25,871 nucleotides of DNA. Source: an uncultured Lachnospiraceae bacterium (GTDB taxonomy: Bacteria > Bacillota > Clostridia > Lachnospirales > Lachnospiraceae). The stretch is taken from NCBI GenBank assembly GCA_934370915.1, contig CAKRNI010000010.1, positions 1-25,871 on the forward strand, given 5' to 3'. Every line of letters begins with the position of its first letter. Position 1 is the stretch's first letter. The notes beneath the pieces were generated by a model. That model worked only from the letters and a program-made list of their open reading frames with translations, did not search any database and was not told the origin of the DNA. Made by a program: the position numbers and the translations under genes. This document shows, piece by piece, positions 1,017 to 16,155 of the stretch.

Positions 1017-1448
1017 ATGACAATCGCAGTAAAACTTCTTTTAACCGTTGCACTTATCTTCAGCATTGCAGTCCCCTTCGGAGCTTTCGCCGCAGGTGAA
1101 AAGACAAAAGGACGCTATAAAACAGCCCTCGCGGCCAACACCGTAATGTTCTTCGGAACCATGCTCTTCGCCGTTTGTGTACTCTTTGGCGGAACCGCAT
1201 TCGCAGCCGAGTCCACAGCTGCAGCCGGCGGTATCTCCACCGGTATGGGCTACATCGCAGCAGCTCTTTCCACCGGCCTTTCCTGCATCGGCGGCGGCGT
1301 TGCCGTTTCTGCGGCAGCATCCGCAGCACTTGGCGCTATCAGTGAGGATTCCTCCATTCTTGGTAAATCTCTTATCTTCGTAGGTCTTGCCGAAGGTGTC
1401 TGCCTGTACGGACTTATCATCTCCTTCATGATCATCGGTAAGCTTTAA
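1017..1448 (+). CDS. ntpK: A/V-type ATP synthase subunit K (rotor c-subunit) with an unusual N-terminal hairpin
   Basis: This 143-residue protein forms the ion-carrying rotor ring. It starts at ATG 1017, 12 bases after an AGGAGG-like site. Four hydrophobic stretches are visible at about residues 5-25, 41-63, 76-108 and 117-141. The C-terminal pair resembles an archaeal-type c-subunit: a Gly/Ala-rich helix, the polar loop AISEDSSILGK, then GLAEGVCLYGLIISF with the ion-binding Glu126. The first pair lacks an acidic residue in its second helix and has a short basic loop (GEKTKGRYK), so only one hairpin should carry an ion, as in four-helix V-type rotor subunits. I see no Gln in the third helix of the kind used for Na+ binding in Enterococcus NtpK, so ion choice is open. 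The first two segments could be read as a signal peptide plus anchor, but the operon position supports a rotor subunit. Confidence 0.93.
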   Translation: MTIAVKLLLTVALIFSIAVPFGAFAAGEKTKGRYKTALAANTVMFFGTMLFAVCVLFGGTAFAAESTAAAGGISTGMGYIAAALSTGLSCIGGGVAVSAAASAALGAISEDSSILGKSLIFVGLAEGVCLYGLIISFMIIGKL

Positions 1449-1493
1449 TGCCTGACAGCATGGCTGAACTATTACCAGGAATGGAGACCGGCT

Positions 1494-10638: not shown

Positions 10639-10710
10639 AAAGTCCCCTGATAAAGAACTGCTGCAGCTGGTCAACCGACCGCTGGCACATTCCCTATCCG
10701 GGGACTTTTT
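10639..10710. terminator. Terminator shared by the VOC and hcp genes
   Basis: AAAGTCCCC (10639-10647) pairs with GGGGACTTT (10700-10708), followed by T's to 10710. An inner stem CAGC-GGTC/GACC-GCTG with an AACC loop lies within. It is strong for the + strand gene and weaker for the - strand gene, which stops at 10714. Confidence 0.85.
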
Positions 10711-12739: not shown

Positions 12740-12745
12740 TATAAT
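12740..12745 (+). promoter_or_regulatory. -10 box for the ktrBA operon
   Basis: Perfect TATAAT with only a T-rich, non-consensus -35 (TTTTCT at 17 bases). It overlaps an in-frame ATG at 12744, so that ATG would not be transcribed in full; this supports the start at 12777. Confidence 0.6.
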
Positions 12746-12776
12746 GGAACAAATGCTTTGTGAAAGGATTCAGGTT

Positions 12777-14114
12777 ATGTTTCGTATTCTTTCCGCTTTC
12801 AGGCGGTTAAATTCATTTCAGATCATTGTTTTAGGCTTTGCCTTCGTGATCTTGCTCGGCACCGGACTCCTGATGCTGCCGGTATCATCCGCCCAGAATG
12901 TCTGGACACCTTTTATTAACGCTCTTTTTACCGCCGTTACCTCCGTCTGCGTGACCGGACTTGTTGTCTATGATACAGGAACCTACTGGTCTGCATTCGG
13001 ACATGCCGTGATCCTTCTTCTGATCCAGATCGGCGGTCTCGGCGTGGTGACGATCTCCGCATCCTTCACAATCATCTCAGGGAAAAAGATTGGACTCTCC
13101 CAGCGCAGTATCATGGCAGAATCCGTTTCCGCCCCACAGATCCGTGGGATTGTGCGTCTCACCGGTTTTATTGTGAAGGTTGCCCTTACGGTCGAACTGA
13201 TCGGCGCACTCCTCCTCATCCCGGTATTCAGCCGGGATTTCGGGCCTTTGCGCGGGATCTGGATGGCCGTGTTCCACTCGGTCTCCGCATTCTGCAATGC
13301 CGGGATCGACCTCATGGGATGCCGCGGCCTTTACTCCTCAATGACCGCCTACGCCTATGATCCGCTGCTCAATTTCACACTTATGCTGCTGATCATTATC
13401 GGCGGGATCGGCTTTCTGACCTGGGACGACATCCACTCCAACGGATATCATTTTTCCAGATACCGGATGCAGAGCAAGGTCATCCTCACATACTCCCTGG
13501 CGCTCATCCTCGTCCCTGCCATCCTCTTCTTCTTCCTGGAATTTCAGGATGTCCCGGCAGGAAAGAGAATCCTTGTCTCCCTGTTCCAGTCCGTGACCGC
13601 GAGGACCGCCGGCTTTAATACTGCGGATCTCTCCTCCATGAGAGAATCCGGACAGTTTCTCATGATCCTCCTGATGATGATCGGCGGAAGCCCGGGATCC
13701 ACCGCCGGAGGAATTAAGACAACGACCATCGCGGTTCTTCTCACCTGCGCGGCTGCCGTATTTACGCGCAAAGACAGCCCGGAAATGTTCAAACGCAGGA
13801 TCGCCGCTGATATCGTCGCCACAGCGATCGCGATCTTTTTTATGTACACGATCCTTGGAACTGTGAGTGCCCTGACGATCAGTATCATCGAAGGACTTCC
13901 GCTTATGGCCTGCCTGTTTGAGTCCTTTTCCGCAATAGCGACCGTCGGGCTGAGCTTCGGTATCACCCCTACTCTGTCACTTCCTTCCAAACTGATCCTG
14001 ATCTGCCTCATGTACATCGGCCGTGTCGGCGGACTCACGATCATTTATGCAACAATGTCCGGCTACAAGATCCAGTGCGGACGACTTCCGCAGGAAAAGA
14101 TTTCCGTTGGATGA
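12777..14114 (+). CDS. ktrB: Potassium uptake channel subunit KtrB/TrkH
   Basis: The membrane pore of a Ktr-type K+ uptake system. I choose ATG 12777 with ribosome site AAAGGA, because the in-frame ATG at 12744 overlaps the promoter; the protein is 445 residues. The four pore-loop repeats are visible in order, each with its filter glycine: ALFTAVTSVCVTGL, FHSVSAFCNAGIDL, FQSVTARTAGFNT and FESFSAIATVGLSFG. The third transmembrane gate region shows GGSPGSTAGGIKTTT, also characteristic. About eight membrane helices surround these loops. The ktrA partner follows 62 bases downstream, with a small hairpin ATGGGG-TTT-CCCCAT (14141-14155) between them. Confidence 0.96.
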   Translation: MFRILSAFRRLNSFQIIVLGFAFVILLGTGLLMLPVSSAQNVWTPFINALFTAVTSVCVTGLVVYDTGTYWSAFGHAVILLLIQIGGLGVVTISASFTIISGKKIGLSQRSIMAESVSAPQIRGIVRLTGFIVKVALTVELIGALLLIPVFSRDFGPLRGIWMAVFHSVSAFCNAGIDLMGCRGLYSSMTAYAYDPLLNFTLMLLIIIGGIGFLTWDDIHSNGYHFSRYRMQSKVILTYSLALILVPAILFFFLEFQDVPAGKRILVSLFQSVTARTAGFNTADLSSMRESGQFLMILLMMIGGSPGSTAGGIKTTTIAVLLTCAAAVFTRKDSPEMFKRRIAADIVATAIAIFFMYTILGTVSALTISIIEGLPLMACLFESFSAIATVGLSFGITPTLSLPSKLILICLMYIGRVGGLTIIYATMSGYKIQCGRLPQEKISVG

Positions 14115-14140: not shown

Positions 14141-14155
14141 ATGGGGTTTCCCCAT
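14141..14155 (+). other. Short hairpin between ktrB and ktrA
   Basis: ATGGGG (14141-14146) and CCCCAT (14150-14155) flank a TTT loop, directly before the ktrA ribosome site AAGGAG (14165-14170). No T-run follows. It could tune translation or RNA stability of ktrA relative to ktrB. Confidence 0.5.
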
Positions 14156-14176
14156 GTTATCATGAAGGAGAATATT

Positions 14177-14824
14177 ATGAAATCAATTCTTTTGATCGGC
14201 CTCGGCCGTTTTGGAAAACATGTTGCCATGCATCTTCACAACCTCGGACATCAGGTCATGGCCGTTGACAGTACGGAGGAACGCGTCAACGCAGTCCTTC
14301 CCTATGTGACGGAAGCACAGATCGGTGACAGTACAAATGAGTCCTTTCTTTCCTCTCTGGGAATCCGCAATTTTGATGCCTGCATCGTAGCGATCGGCGA
14401 TAATTTCCAGAGTTCCCTTGAAACGACCTCTCTCTTAAAGGAGCTCGGCGCAAAGCTCGTTGTCTCCCGTGCTTCCAGTGATGTTCACCAGAAATTTCTT
14501 TTAAGAAACGGTGCCGATCAGGTCGTCTACCCGGAACAGCAGCTTGCGAAATGGACAGCGATCCGCTTCAGCTCCGACCACATTCTTGATTTCGTCAATC
14601 TGGAAGGCGACTACGATATCTATGAGGTTGATCTTCCGGAGCGCTGGGTTGGCATGAGCGTAGGTGAGATCGATATCCGGAAAAAATACGGCATCAACAT
14701 CATTGCCGTCCGGCGAAACGGCACTCTGGATTTCTCCGTCAAGCCGGAAACCGTCTTCGAAGACGGCAATACGATCCTGGTTCTCGGACAGTATCGCGAT
14801 CTGCAGAAATGCTTTAAAATTTAA
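14177..14824 (+). CDS. ktrA: Potassium uptake regulatory subunit KtrA (RCK domain)
   Basis: The cytosolic ring-forming subunit that gates KtrB in response to nucleotides. The start at ATG 14177 follows AAGGAG (14165-14170); the protein is 215 residues. Residues 1-130 form an RCK N-domain with the Rossmann signature LIGLGRFGKHVAMHL and an acidic residue at the end of the second strand (MAVD). Residues about 135-215 form the smaller RCK C-domain, with the family-like stretch VGEIDIRKKYGINIIAVRR. Its stop codon forms part of the first stem of the structured RNA region downstream. Confidence 0.95.
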   Translation: MKSILLIGLGRFGKHVAMHLHNLGHQVMAVDSTEERVNAVLPYVTEAQIGDSTNESFLSSLGIRNFDACIVAIGDNFQSSLETTSLLKELGAKLVVSRASSDVHQKFLLRNGADQVVYPEQQLAKWTAIRFSSDHILDFVNLEGDYDIYEVDLPERWVGMSVGEIDIRKKYGINIIAVRRNGTLDFSVKPETVFEDGNTILVLGQYRDLQKCFKI

Positions 14825-15037
14825 CCGAATCAAGTAAGTCCCCTGCTTCAATTGCGAAAAGCAATAAGCAGTGGGTGGGGGCTTGCTTGTATCAGGAGGA
14901 GTGCAAGCTCCTTCTGATAAACTGCGGAGCAGTTATTCGGTTATGAGCAAGTAGCGAAGCGGATTGCGAATATCCGCTTGACTATCCTGTTTGTCCCAAT
15001 GCGCACCTGCGAAACCTGCCGCCGGCAGCTTCTTTCG
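14822..15037 (+). ncRNA. Densely folded region after ktrA: four-way junction plus two hairpins
   Basis: P1: TAACCGAAT (14822-14830) pairs with 14935-14943, 9 bp perfect. P2: 14831-14843 with 14877-14889, 13 bp including two G-U pairs, continued by TGCTT/AAGCA (14844-14848, 14866-14870) and ATTGC/GCAAT around a GAAAA loop. P3: 14891-14901 with 14908-14918, 11 bp with one G-U. P4: AACTGC/GCAGTT (14920-14925, 14929-14934). Only two bases are unpaired at the junction. Two more hairpins follow: AAGCGGAT/ATCCGCTT (14957-14979) and a two-part stem at 15010-15037. No open frame of note and no promoter is visible here, so it is probably the 3' region of the ktr transcript, or a DNA-level palindromic element. 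I recognise no named RNA family. Confidence 0.6.
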
Positions 15038-15052
15038 TATGCATAGCAGCAC

Positions 15053-15111
15053 AAAAAGCCATTTTATGGATATCTCCTGAATTTCAGGACTTTCCCATAA
15101 AATGGCTTTTT
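15053..15111. terminator. Long bidirectional terminator between ktrA and the deacylase gene
   Basis: A perfect 17-bp stem joins 15053-15069 and 15095-15111 (AAAAAGCCATTTTATGG and its complement), with an inner TCCTGAA/TTCAGGA hairpin. A and T runs at the ends serve both converging transcripts. Confidence 0.9.
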
Positions 15112-15139: not shown

Positions 15140-16090
15140 TTATCTATCCACATATTCCCCATAGGCGATCAGCGGATCCCCGGCTTTCACGCCAAGACCC
15201 ACCGTCTGGTACAGAACAATTCCCGGATAGTCTGCCTGGTACTCCCGCAAAAGATTTCCCCAGATATCTCTCACCGTTCCAAGGATCTCGCCGCCCGCGA
15301 ACACATCTCCTGCGGAAAATACCGGATACCACAATCCATCTGTCTCCGCCTCCAGATACTCCGCTCTGGTCACATTTTTCTGCTGCACCGTATGAATCTC
15401 TTCACCGGAAAGAAGTCCCATGCGGATCATAATATTTTTCACATCTCGCTTATATGCCTGAACTTCGCTGTCCGTAAATCTTCCGCCGCCTCCGCGCTCC
15501 ATGAGGATCGCAGGAAGACCTCTCTGACATGCGCTGCTGTAGGCGCCGGTGGTCGCTGTGGAGCTGGCACGCACCTTCATATCTGCCGCCATCGCCATGT
15601 TTTCAGAGATTCTGGCGATCTTCTCTCCCGCCGCCACATTATAATAGACAAACGGCATAACCTCTTCACTGGTATCACCCGCATGAAGATCGATATAAAA
15701 ATCAGCTTTCGCCTGCAACTCTTCCGTGATCGTCCATGCGATCCGCTCCGACAATGTCCCATCCTTTTTCCCCGGGAATACCCGGTTCAGATTTTTTCCA
15801 TCCTCAGGCACGAAAAAGCGGACATAATCCCGGAACGCTGACGGATTCGCCACATGAAGGCAGATCACATTACCTGAGATCTCCTTCGGATCAAGTTCCC
15901 TGGAAAGCTCGGAGAGCACCTGCACGCCAATATATTCCGCGCCATGGATTCCCGCTGATATCATCAGCGTAGGACCTTCCTTCGCCCCGCAGATAAGTGT
16001 AAGCGGAAGTTTCTGTCCGCCGCCTTCTATTTCCAGCCACCCTGTCTTCTTTTCTCCTGCTTCTGCACAGATCGTTCCGATCTCCAGCAT
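15140..16090 (-). CDS. Zinc-dependent AstE/AspA-family deacylase (M14-like)
   Basis: Family members hydrolyse an N-acyl bond of a small amino-acid derivative in the cytosol. The start at 16090 follows AGGAGGTGG; the protein is 316 residues. Zinc ligands are visible as GIHGAEY (His49, Glu52) and DLHAGD (His136). The substrate-binding DGKNLNRVFPG (Asn100, Arg103) and the catalytic Glu198 in ILMERGG are present. A C-terminal beta domain follows (about 235-316). It is the last gene of the nik-like operon, 65 bases after nikE. The gap contains GAACAGTTAC, the end motif of the 40-nt repeat. The position suggests that it processes whatever the transporter brings in. Family relatives include aspartoacylase, succinylglutamate desuccinylase and DoeB-like deacetylases; the true substrate cannot be read from sequence. 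Confidence 0.85.
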   Translation of the reverse strand: MLEIGTICAEAGEKKTGWLEIEGGGQKLPLTLICGAKEGPTLMISAGIHGAEYIGVQVLSELSRELDPKEISGNVICLHVANPSAFRDYVRFFVPEDGKNLNRVFPGKKDGTLSERIAWTITEELQAKADFYIDLHAGDTSEEVMPFVYYNVAAGEKIARISENMAMAADMKVRASSTATTGAYSSACQRGLPAILMERGGGGRFTDSEVQAYKRDVKNIMIRMGLLSGEEIHTVQQKNVTRAEYLEAETDGLWYPVFSAGDVFAGGEILGTVRDIWGNLLREYQADYPGIVLYQTVGLGVKAGDPLIAYGEYVDR

Positions 16091-16155
16091 ATTGCTGCCA
16101 CCTCCTGAGCATATTTTCTGCTGCGCACTGTAACTGTTCAATGCCCTCACAGCTA

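Follow-up and report, generated by a model that had tools for sequence, protein, structure and literature searches.

A dispersed 158-bp repeat beginning at a ktrA stop codon is probably a non-autonomous IS200/IS605-type element with a closed four-way junction

The locus

The window, i.e. the whole stretch of DNA analysed here (25,871 nucleotides), comes from an uncultured Lachnospiraceae bacterium (assembly GCA_934370915.1, contig CAKRNI010000010.1). The region of interest lies between a ktrA-like gene and a convergent deacylase-like gene, and includes the following features.

12744-14114, TrkH/KtrB-like gene, upstream of the ktrA-like gene; its score is just below the NCBIfam cut-off
14141..14824, + strand, ktrA-like gene encoding a K+ uptake regulator of the TrkA-N type, part of the host context only
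14820..14824, + strand, target pentanucleotide TTTAA, left of the element, seen in 40/44 copies and in empty sites
14825..14982, + strand, mobile element of 158 bp, C...TTGAC, delimited by copy boundaries and empty sites
14978..14982, + strand, right terminus TTGAC, found by script in 30/44 copies
15140-16150, minus strand, deacylase-like gene, downstream and convergent

Among 44 KtrA relatives, 41 align up to the last residue (227), with a best identity of 69%, and the ktrA stop codon is therefore native. This codon is the TAA (14822-14824) of the target TTTAA. Indeed, the structure does start in the ktrA stop codon as the original prediction had it, and the TAA found there consists of target bases. 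The insertion leaves the KtrA protein unchanged, and any effect on the ktrA mRNA is secondary.

The approximately 290 bases once regarded as one structured run consist of three separate parts (14825-14982, 15004-15057 and 15053-15111). The first is a single repeat comprising the junction and the next hairpin. The second resembles an unrelated dispersed repeat of about 50 nt, with the pattern ACCTGC.GAACCTGCC.CCGGCAGCTTCTT.CG.ATGC and relatives in the gut contigs MT835487, MT835561 and MT835525. The third is an inverted repeat, nearly perfect (AAAAAGCCATTTTATGG...CCATAAAATGGCTTTTT), that separates two convergent genes and resembles a bidirectional terminator; it is distinct from the mobile element. 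Elsewhere in the window, an inverted repeat at 10639-10708 (AAAGTCCCC.../...GGGGACTTT, 32-nt gap) beside a hybrid-cluster (hydroxylamine reductase) gene is probably a terminator as well. A scan of the whole window with Rfam gave no family at its gathering score, in line with the initial view that no known element explains the structure; weak matches to RefA9, mir-3167 and AdoCbl-II, located at the terminator hairpin or close to it, were regarded as fortuitous.

Copies, ends and empty sites

We aligned 44 copies, 40 from genomes and four from viral or phage contigs (G, C and L numbers below are our handles for genomes, contigs and loci). By BLAST alignment, TTTAA stands at the start of 40/44 copies, at unrelated sites. 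Right ends other than TTGAC are TTGAT (5), TTTAC/TTTAA types and single variants, and the script overlooked one TTGAC in L045. Flanks are unrelated between copies, with the exception of one homologous site pair in G205 (L147, L156). When the target was compared with the right flank in 33 copies, 21 shared 0 nt and 11 shared 1-3 nt; a single case of 5 shared nt is spurious, the target of L047 being TTGAA while the comparison was made with the literal TTTAA. Scattered copies with target duplications had been put forward as the signature of an ordinary repeat: scattered copies there are, duplications there are not.

Uninterrupted sites define the insertion further. The site of L133 (G297) is empty in the related genomes G445 and G438, with 92.75% identity over 400 nt: the filled site reads AAGATTTAA / C...TTGAC / ACAATATATT and the empty one AAGATTTAA / ATAATATATT, with one TTTAA joined to the right flank. 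Eight loci orthologous to L140 are empty, TTTAA being kept in two (G471, G449) and the target having diverged in six, and one empty orthologue of L130 also has a diverged target. For the IMG/VR copy L058, none of 80 other pattern-scan stretches matched its flanks as an empty site. From the exact ends and the empty sites it follows that insertion takes place 3′ of TTTAA and creates no duplication.

One copy, L136 (G152:C49), is inserted at TAGTTTAA, a site that by eye resembles a tRNA D arm, and its right flank carries a T-arm-like sequence.

Fold and covariation

The minimum free energy (MFE) fold of 14822-15111 has -127.9 kcal/mol, against -81.8 ± 5.0 kcal/mol in 200 shuffles (z -9.3, 0/200 shuffles as low), a value that includes the terminator. 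The four stems of the original prediction all recur in this fold at their places, and the two unpaired bases proposed for the branch point do not: the MFE fold leaves none, and hairpin B is one pair longer at both ends than foreseen. The structural features are as follows.

14822..14943, + strand, closed four-way junction (MFE fold), with changes on both sides in 32/51 pairs across 31 copies
14822-14830/14935-14943, + strand, P1 stem, its first three pairs made with the TAA of the target
14831..14889, + strand, hairpin A (14831-14843/14877-14889, with inner stems 14844-14848/14866-14870 and 14851-14855/14861-14865)
14890..14919, + strand, hairpin B (14890-14902/14907-14919), 95.8% of cells paired, also found by RNAalifold
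14920..14934, + strand, hairpin C (14920-14925/14929-14934), 88.2% of cells paired
14940..14943, + strand, GTTA, a putative guide that is complementary to TAAC (14822-14825) and lies at the 5′ foot of the core hairpin
14942..14972, + strand, core hairpin, with a 29-nt core (14943-14971), a GA/GA tandem and a 3x3 internal loop
14957..14979, + strand, alternative 3′ hairpin (14957-14964/14972-14979) of the MFE fold, which excludes the core hairpin and vice versa

Hairpins lie near both ends of the element: the core hairpin adjoins the right end and hairpin A stands 6 nt from the left end. The GA opposite GA in the core hairpin suggests sheared pairs.

Covariation was assessed in an alignment of 31 copies (A2), from which L145 and the duplicates L149, L158 and L160 were excluded, as were L078 and L086 for their odd lengths, and in which L045 was included. 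Standard pairs make up 86.7% at the 51 junction pairs. The original prediction had made its case depend on compensatory changes in homologues, and these are present: both sides change in 32/51 junction pairs, among them 9/13 pairs of hairpin B and 5/6 of hairpin C. None of 500 shuffles reached any of five covariation measures for the junction, and pairing falls to 38-48% when the 3′ partners are slid along it. Without a given structure, RNAalifold recovered hairpins B and C and the inner part of A, and placed the core hairpin (UAUGAGCAAGUAGC-GAA-GCGGAUUGCGAAUA) where P1 would be.

The core hairpin is paired in 96.8% of cells, against 13-42% in slid versions. Both-side changes are seen in 2/9 of its pairs (U-A to C-G and C-G to G-C), so few because the core is so conserved, and two of the five covariation measures do not rise above shuffles (169/500 and 423/500 reach them). 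The alternative 3′ hairpin has 215 Watson-Crick and 20 G-T pairs in 248 cells. The weakest helix in A2 is P1 (72.5% of cells), in part through misalignment of the second subfamily at this place. Most rows of A2 were chosen with P1 complementarity as a criterion, so that the P1 counts are not independent; no such selection for pairing was applied to hairpins A-C or to the core. Over P1, A, B and C, 120 cells are G-T and 49 are A-C, and this excess indicates that folding concerns the top strand, in the form of either RNA or single-stranded DNA.

Pairing of a putative guide with the target

The TAAC that GTTA can pair with is made up of the end of the target and the first base of the element. The left target of IS608 base-pairs with four guide nucleotides located at a hairpin foot (PMC6006769, PMC7290912), and a guide role for GTTA is inferred here by analogy with that scheme (PMC6006769). 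TTTAAC occurs together with GTTA in 38/43 type-1 copies (37 by script and L150 by reading). The combination is missing in the other five, three of which differ by one target letter. Two copies in G060 carry GTG, one at TTTCA, which it matches, and one at TTTAA, which it does not.

A second subfamily (type 2) lies at TTGAA, with the guide GTTCA and the right end TTTAC; its ends were set by three copy pairs in unlike flanks. All ten type-2 loci (eight by pattern, L047 and L052 by reading) have GTTCA, and the target with the first base is TTGAAC in nine and GTGAAC in one. For the right end, by eye in A2, a pairing of GTTA with TGAC could form if one G-T is accepted. No pairing rule for a right-end guide (TTGAC/TTTAC) that was consistent across the subfamilies emerged from inspection of the same alignment.

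Orientation relative to replication

In four chromosomes taken together, 102/112 listed copies point with the replication fork and 10/112 against it (with the fork: G443 28/28, G491 28/32, G445 25/28, G438 21/24); neighbouring and partial copies were counted singly in this tally, so that not all are independent. These 112 are among 142 matches in the four genomes, and two rows of contig C3 of G438 were excluded. dnaA was located by profile, the terminus was assumed to lie opposite dnaA, and the chromosome lengths of G491, G445 and G438 are estimates. Since the copies point with the fork, the top strand of the element is the lagging-strand template. Lagging-strand orientation is known for IS200/IS605 elements (PMC5371812).

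The bias could in part reflect gene orientation, because neighbouring ORFs are co-oriented in 33/40 cases (~82%) in G443. Matches over cut-off to the Rfam family Clostridiales-1 point with the fork in 18/26 cases (Fisher P 0.007 against the element), which makes an imperfect control as 20 of these 26 lie in two other genomes, G136 and G316.

Distribution of copies

The genomes searched were reached through KtrA relatives, one of them (L012) being Brotaphodocola catenula, a member of the Lachnospiraceae. In the family of L012, matches were found in 82/397 genomes, many by the core alone and several genomes having many full-length copies; G297, G443, G445, G438 and G491 each hold at least 31-40 complete or partial matches. 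The core hairpin is the most widespread part of the element, with core-only matches in many genomes. Under stricter filters, and with few candidates scored per genome (up to 14 for the family, up to 9 for the phylum), a covariance model found matches, some limited to the core, in 34/200 family genomes (E 1e-6) and in 1/299 genomes of a phylum-wide sample, this one being the centre genome G297. A search of a plasmid collection gave no match.

BLAST of 14820-14960 against phage records matched 16, of which 14 are 'Bacteriophage sp.' contigs from human faeces, the records of L045-L057 among the matched contigs carrying an 'unverified' mark. Two matches span the whole query at 89-90% and shorter ones reach 100%. 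Homology to these copies extends from 14820 to 14983, i.e. beyond the junction and through the following hairpin.

The linkage to ktrA is not general. BLAST of 34 KtrA-locus genomes gave 0 element copies, and folding of the 3′ flanks of KtrA orthologues (35 of 44, inspected by eye) revealed nothing similar, which speaks against the proposal of a 3′ UTR-derived RNA of the K+ operon. Copies elsewhere adjoin unrelated genes, so that the idea of an ion-responsive cis element finds no support either. In G443, where the longest ORF on each side was taken as the neighbour for 20 of the 28 listed copies, 5/20 copies lie between divergent genes and 15/20 have a co-directional ORF at their left. The third option of the original prediction, a mobile palindromic repeat, was the right one, as seen from the dispersed copies with exact ends and from the empty sites.

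The 29-nt core is also found in tandem (L165-L169), as two or three copies separated by tens of bases to ~150 nt; these tandem cores adjoin other genes in several genomes and show no evident TTTAA...TTGAC frame.

Search for a transposase

No transposase gene linked to the element was found. Among the Y1_Tnp genes of 16 genomes, none belongs to a parent or helper with matching ends, and the nearest shares the target and has another right end. That nearest relative is a TnpA/TnpB element of ~1.87 kb present in three copies (one broken off) in G060. Like our element, it is inserted 3′ of TTTAA, its first base is C, and it carries GTTA followed by a GCAAG...TTG hairpin, located there at the left end; by eye, its right-end hairpin (CCCCCACTTCAA...TTAAGTGGTGGG) resembles hairpin A. 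It differs in being protein-coding and in its right terminus, which is GTCAC and not TTGAC in the two copies that have a right end. A tnpA in G237 has a similar left end.

TnpA of the G060 type does not associate with the element: it occurs in 18/200 family genomes and the element in 34/200, with an overlap of 4 where ~3 are expected by chance, in surveys that appear to cover the same 200 genomes. G101 and G402, which have a copy or partial copies, gave no Y1_Tnp match at E 1e-5. Palindrome-associated transposable elements (PATEs) can lack a parent in their own genome.

Two candidates were set aside. A tnpA in G152:C6 beside a copy (L105/L145) had the appearance of an autonomous element, and is just a neighbour since a whole copy precedes it. 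At L109 (G237), the core lies ~165 nt after a tnpA with an internal stop, and this IS seems to be equipped with end hairpins of its own.

Interpretation

We propose that 14825-14982 is a non-autonomous IS200/IS605-type element ('peel and paste', Y1 HUH) moved in trans, with a probability of about 0.84. Insertion next to TTTAA without duplication, empty sites, orientation with the fork and guide pairing are hallmarks of IS200/IS605 elements. What we observe directly is the target, the exact ends, the covariation, the match of guide and target, the orientation and, from comparison, the mobility; folding as single-stranded DNA in vivo, Y1 chemistry and the use of one guide for the closed junction are what we infer from them. 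We file the element as PATE-like, with an unusual closed four-way junction.

The steps could be the following. While it is exposed as single-stranded lagging-strand template, the top strand would fold into the junction, and this fold would place the left target (TTTAA/C) against GTTA, the guide next to the right end at the base of the core hairpin. Cuts after TTTAA and after TTGAC may then be made by a Y1 transposase that has bound this hairpin, and the excised single-stranded circle would be re-inserted after another TTTAA recognised by the same guide. On this reading, the structure is conserved because the mobile DNA needs it.

A bolder proposal, to which we give rather less than even odds, is that of a self-closing single-stranded DNA transposon: a single guide and hairpin near the right end would hold the left target by a long-range stem, the four-way junction would present both cut sites to one transposase, and retargeting would occur by guide change (TTTAA/GTTA, TTGAA/GTTCA and once TTTCA/GTG). 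If this were true, we would be dealing with a miniaturised peel-and-paste element that can be retargeted, is found mainly in Lachnospiraceae and has a transposase that does not travel along.

IS605 itself targets TTTAA(C). Like IS608, ISDra2 and IS605 (PMC7290912, PMC6006769, PMC5371812), the element has a short fixed target 5′ of the insertion, a hairpin with a guide at its 5′ foot and a lagging-strand orientation; unlike them, it has no tnpA/tnpB, and its left-target guide stands ~115 nt away, beside the right end and not at a hairpin of the left end. It also resembles the PATEs of Haloquadratum and Halanaerobium, IS605-related elements which, as described in PMC3119063 and PMC7290912, have neither transposase gene nor terminal inverted repeats, carry near-terminal palindromes and are amplified in some types. 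In the same descriptions, the palindromes of PATEs are like those of identifiable IS605 elements, whereas we found no parent with the same two ends as ours. It further differs from PATEs, as they are portrayed there, in that its hairpins are closed into a four-way junction by the target itself, which pairs with a guide located close to the other end. Among the titles listed from the open-licence literature on the core sequence, MITEs, IS605/PATEs and REPs, we found no description of such an element.

Among the alternatives, a REP-type element is an improbable one. The core hairpin would be the REP, moved by a domesticated TnpA(REP)/RAYT-like enzyme in place of a mobile IS605 TnpA, and the junction form one BIME-like arrangement of several. 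Core-only and tandem copies exist, the candidate mobile TnpA does not co-occur with the element, and REPs and REPINs are likewise scattered hairpins that carry four guide nucleotides at their foot (for REPs, PMC6006769). However, REPs measure 21-65 nt (PMC6006769) and have a GT[AG]G foot, while here whole 158-bp units move, with exact ends 3′ of TTTAA, and the foot is GTTA, the GTAG of the core sitting in an internal loop.

Still harder to maintain is a conserved functional RNA, 3′ UTR-derived or acting in cis, which would be multi-copy by chance and would owe its covariation to RNA function; we consider it very unlikely. The strong covariation, the tolerance of G-U on the top strand, the co-directional ORF at the left of 15/20 copies in G443 and the fact that the core falls in an Rfam 'sRNA' family would suit it. 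Yet folded single-stranded DNA accounts equally well for the covariation and the G-T tolerance, and an RNA would hardly explain sharp ends at unrelated sites, empty sites, the lack of gene linkage, the 5/20 copies between divergent ORFs or the 28/28 listed copies of G443 oriented with replication.

An ordinary MITE mobilised by a DDE (double-strand) transposase, with P1 as terminal inverted repeats, would be small, non-coding and of high copy number like our element, and P1 is an inverted repeat, but we give this next to no credence: a further 39 bp lie beyond the right P1 arm, so that the two arms are not terminal on both sides, host target bases form three of the P1 pairs, targets are not duplicated (0 nt shared in 21/33 copies, 1-3 nt in 11/33), replication orientation is strong, and a true duplicating repeat, Clostridiales-1 in G402, looks different.

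As a non-autonomous IS200/IS605-type element, the repeat adds a widespread class of single-stranded DNA elements to the Lachnospiraceae and explains a striking structure as mobile DNA. It offers a natural series, with joint differences in target and guide, that could be useful to test target choice by TnpA. More generally, a dispersed structure that covaries strongly is not necessarily a functional RNA.

Relation to Clostridiales-1

The element in the window matches Clostridiales-1 (RF01699) through its core, at 24.5 bits (E 0.002), below the gathering score of 48. The motif common to both is UGAGCA.G.AGC...GCGGA.UGCGAAU. Of 18 loci whose copies are shorter, in tandem or reduced to the core, seven match RF01699 at E 0.05, and one of these seven, L168, exceeds the gathering score with 70.6 bits. 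Weinberg et al. (PMC2864571) regarded Clostridiales-1 as a probable RNA that is not cis-regulatory. In G402, RF01699 copies (L350-L364) are near-identical and dispersed, and perfect 6-bp direct repeats flank 13/15 of those read, so that Clostridiales-1 is in this genome a target-duplicating dispersed repeat. It is a mobile repeat there and no ordinary sRNA gene. Clostridiales-1 and our element are alike in the core motif and unlike in these duplications: the core is common to repeats that differ in how they move. RF01699 may consequently deserve re-annotation, given the common core and the dispersed, target-duplicating repeat in one genome.

By eye, the ends of the G402 copies resemble inverted repeats (GTGTCAAAAG / CTTTTGACAC). 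At L085, a TwoAYGGAY RNA match (1352-1485, minus strand, 46.4 bits, gathering score 43) overlaps a weak Clostridiales-1 match, and another TwoAYGGAY match, of 113.7 bits, lies ~700 nt from the element at L047.
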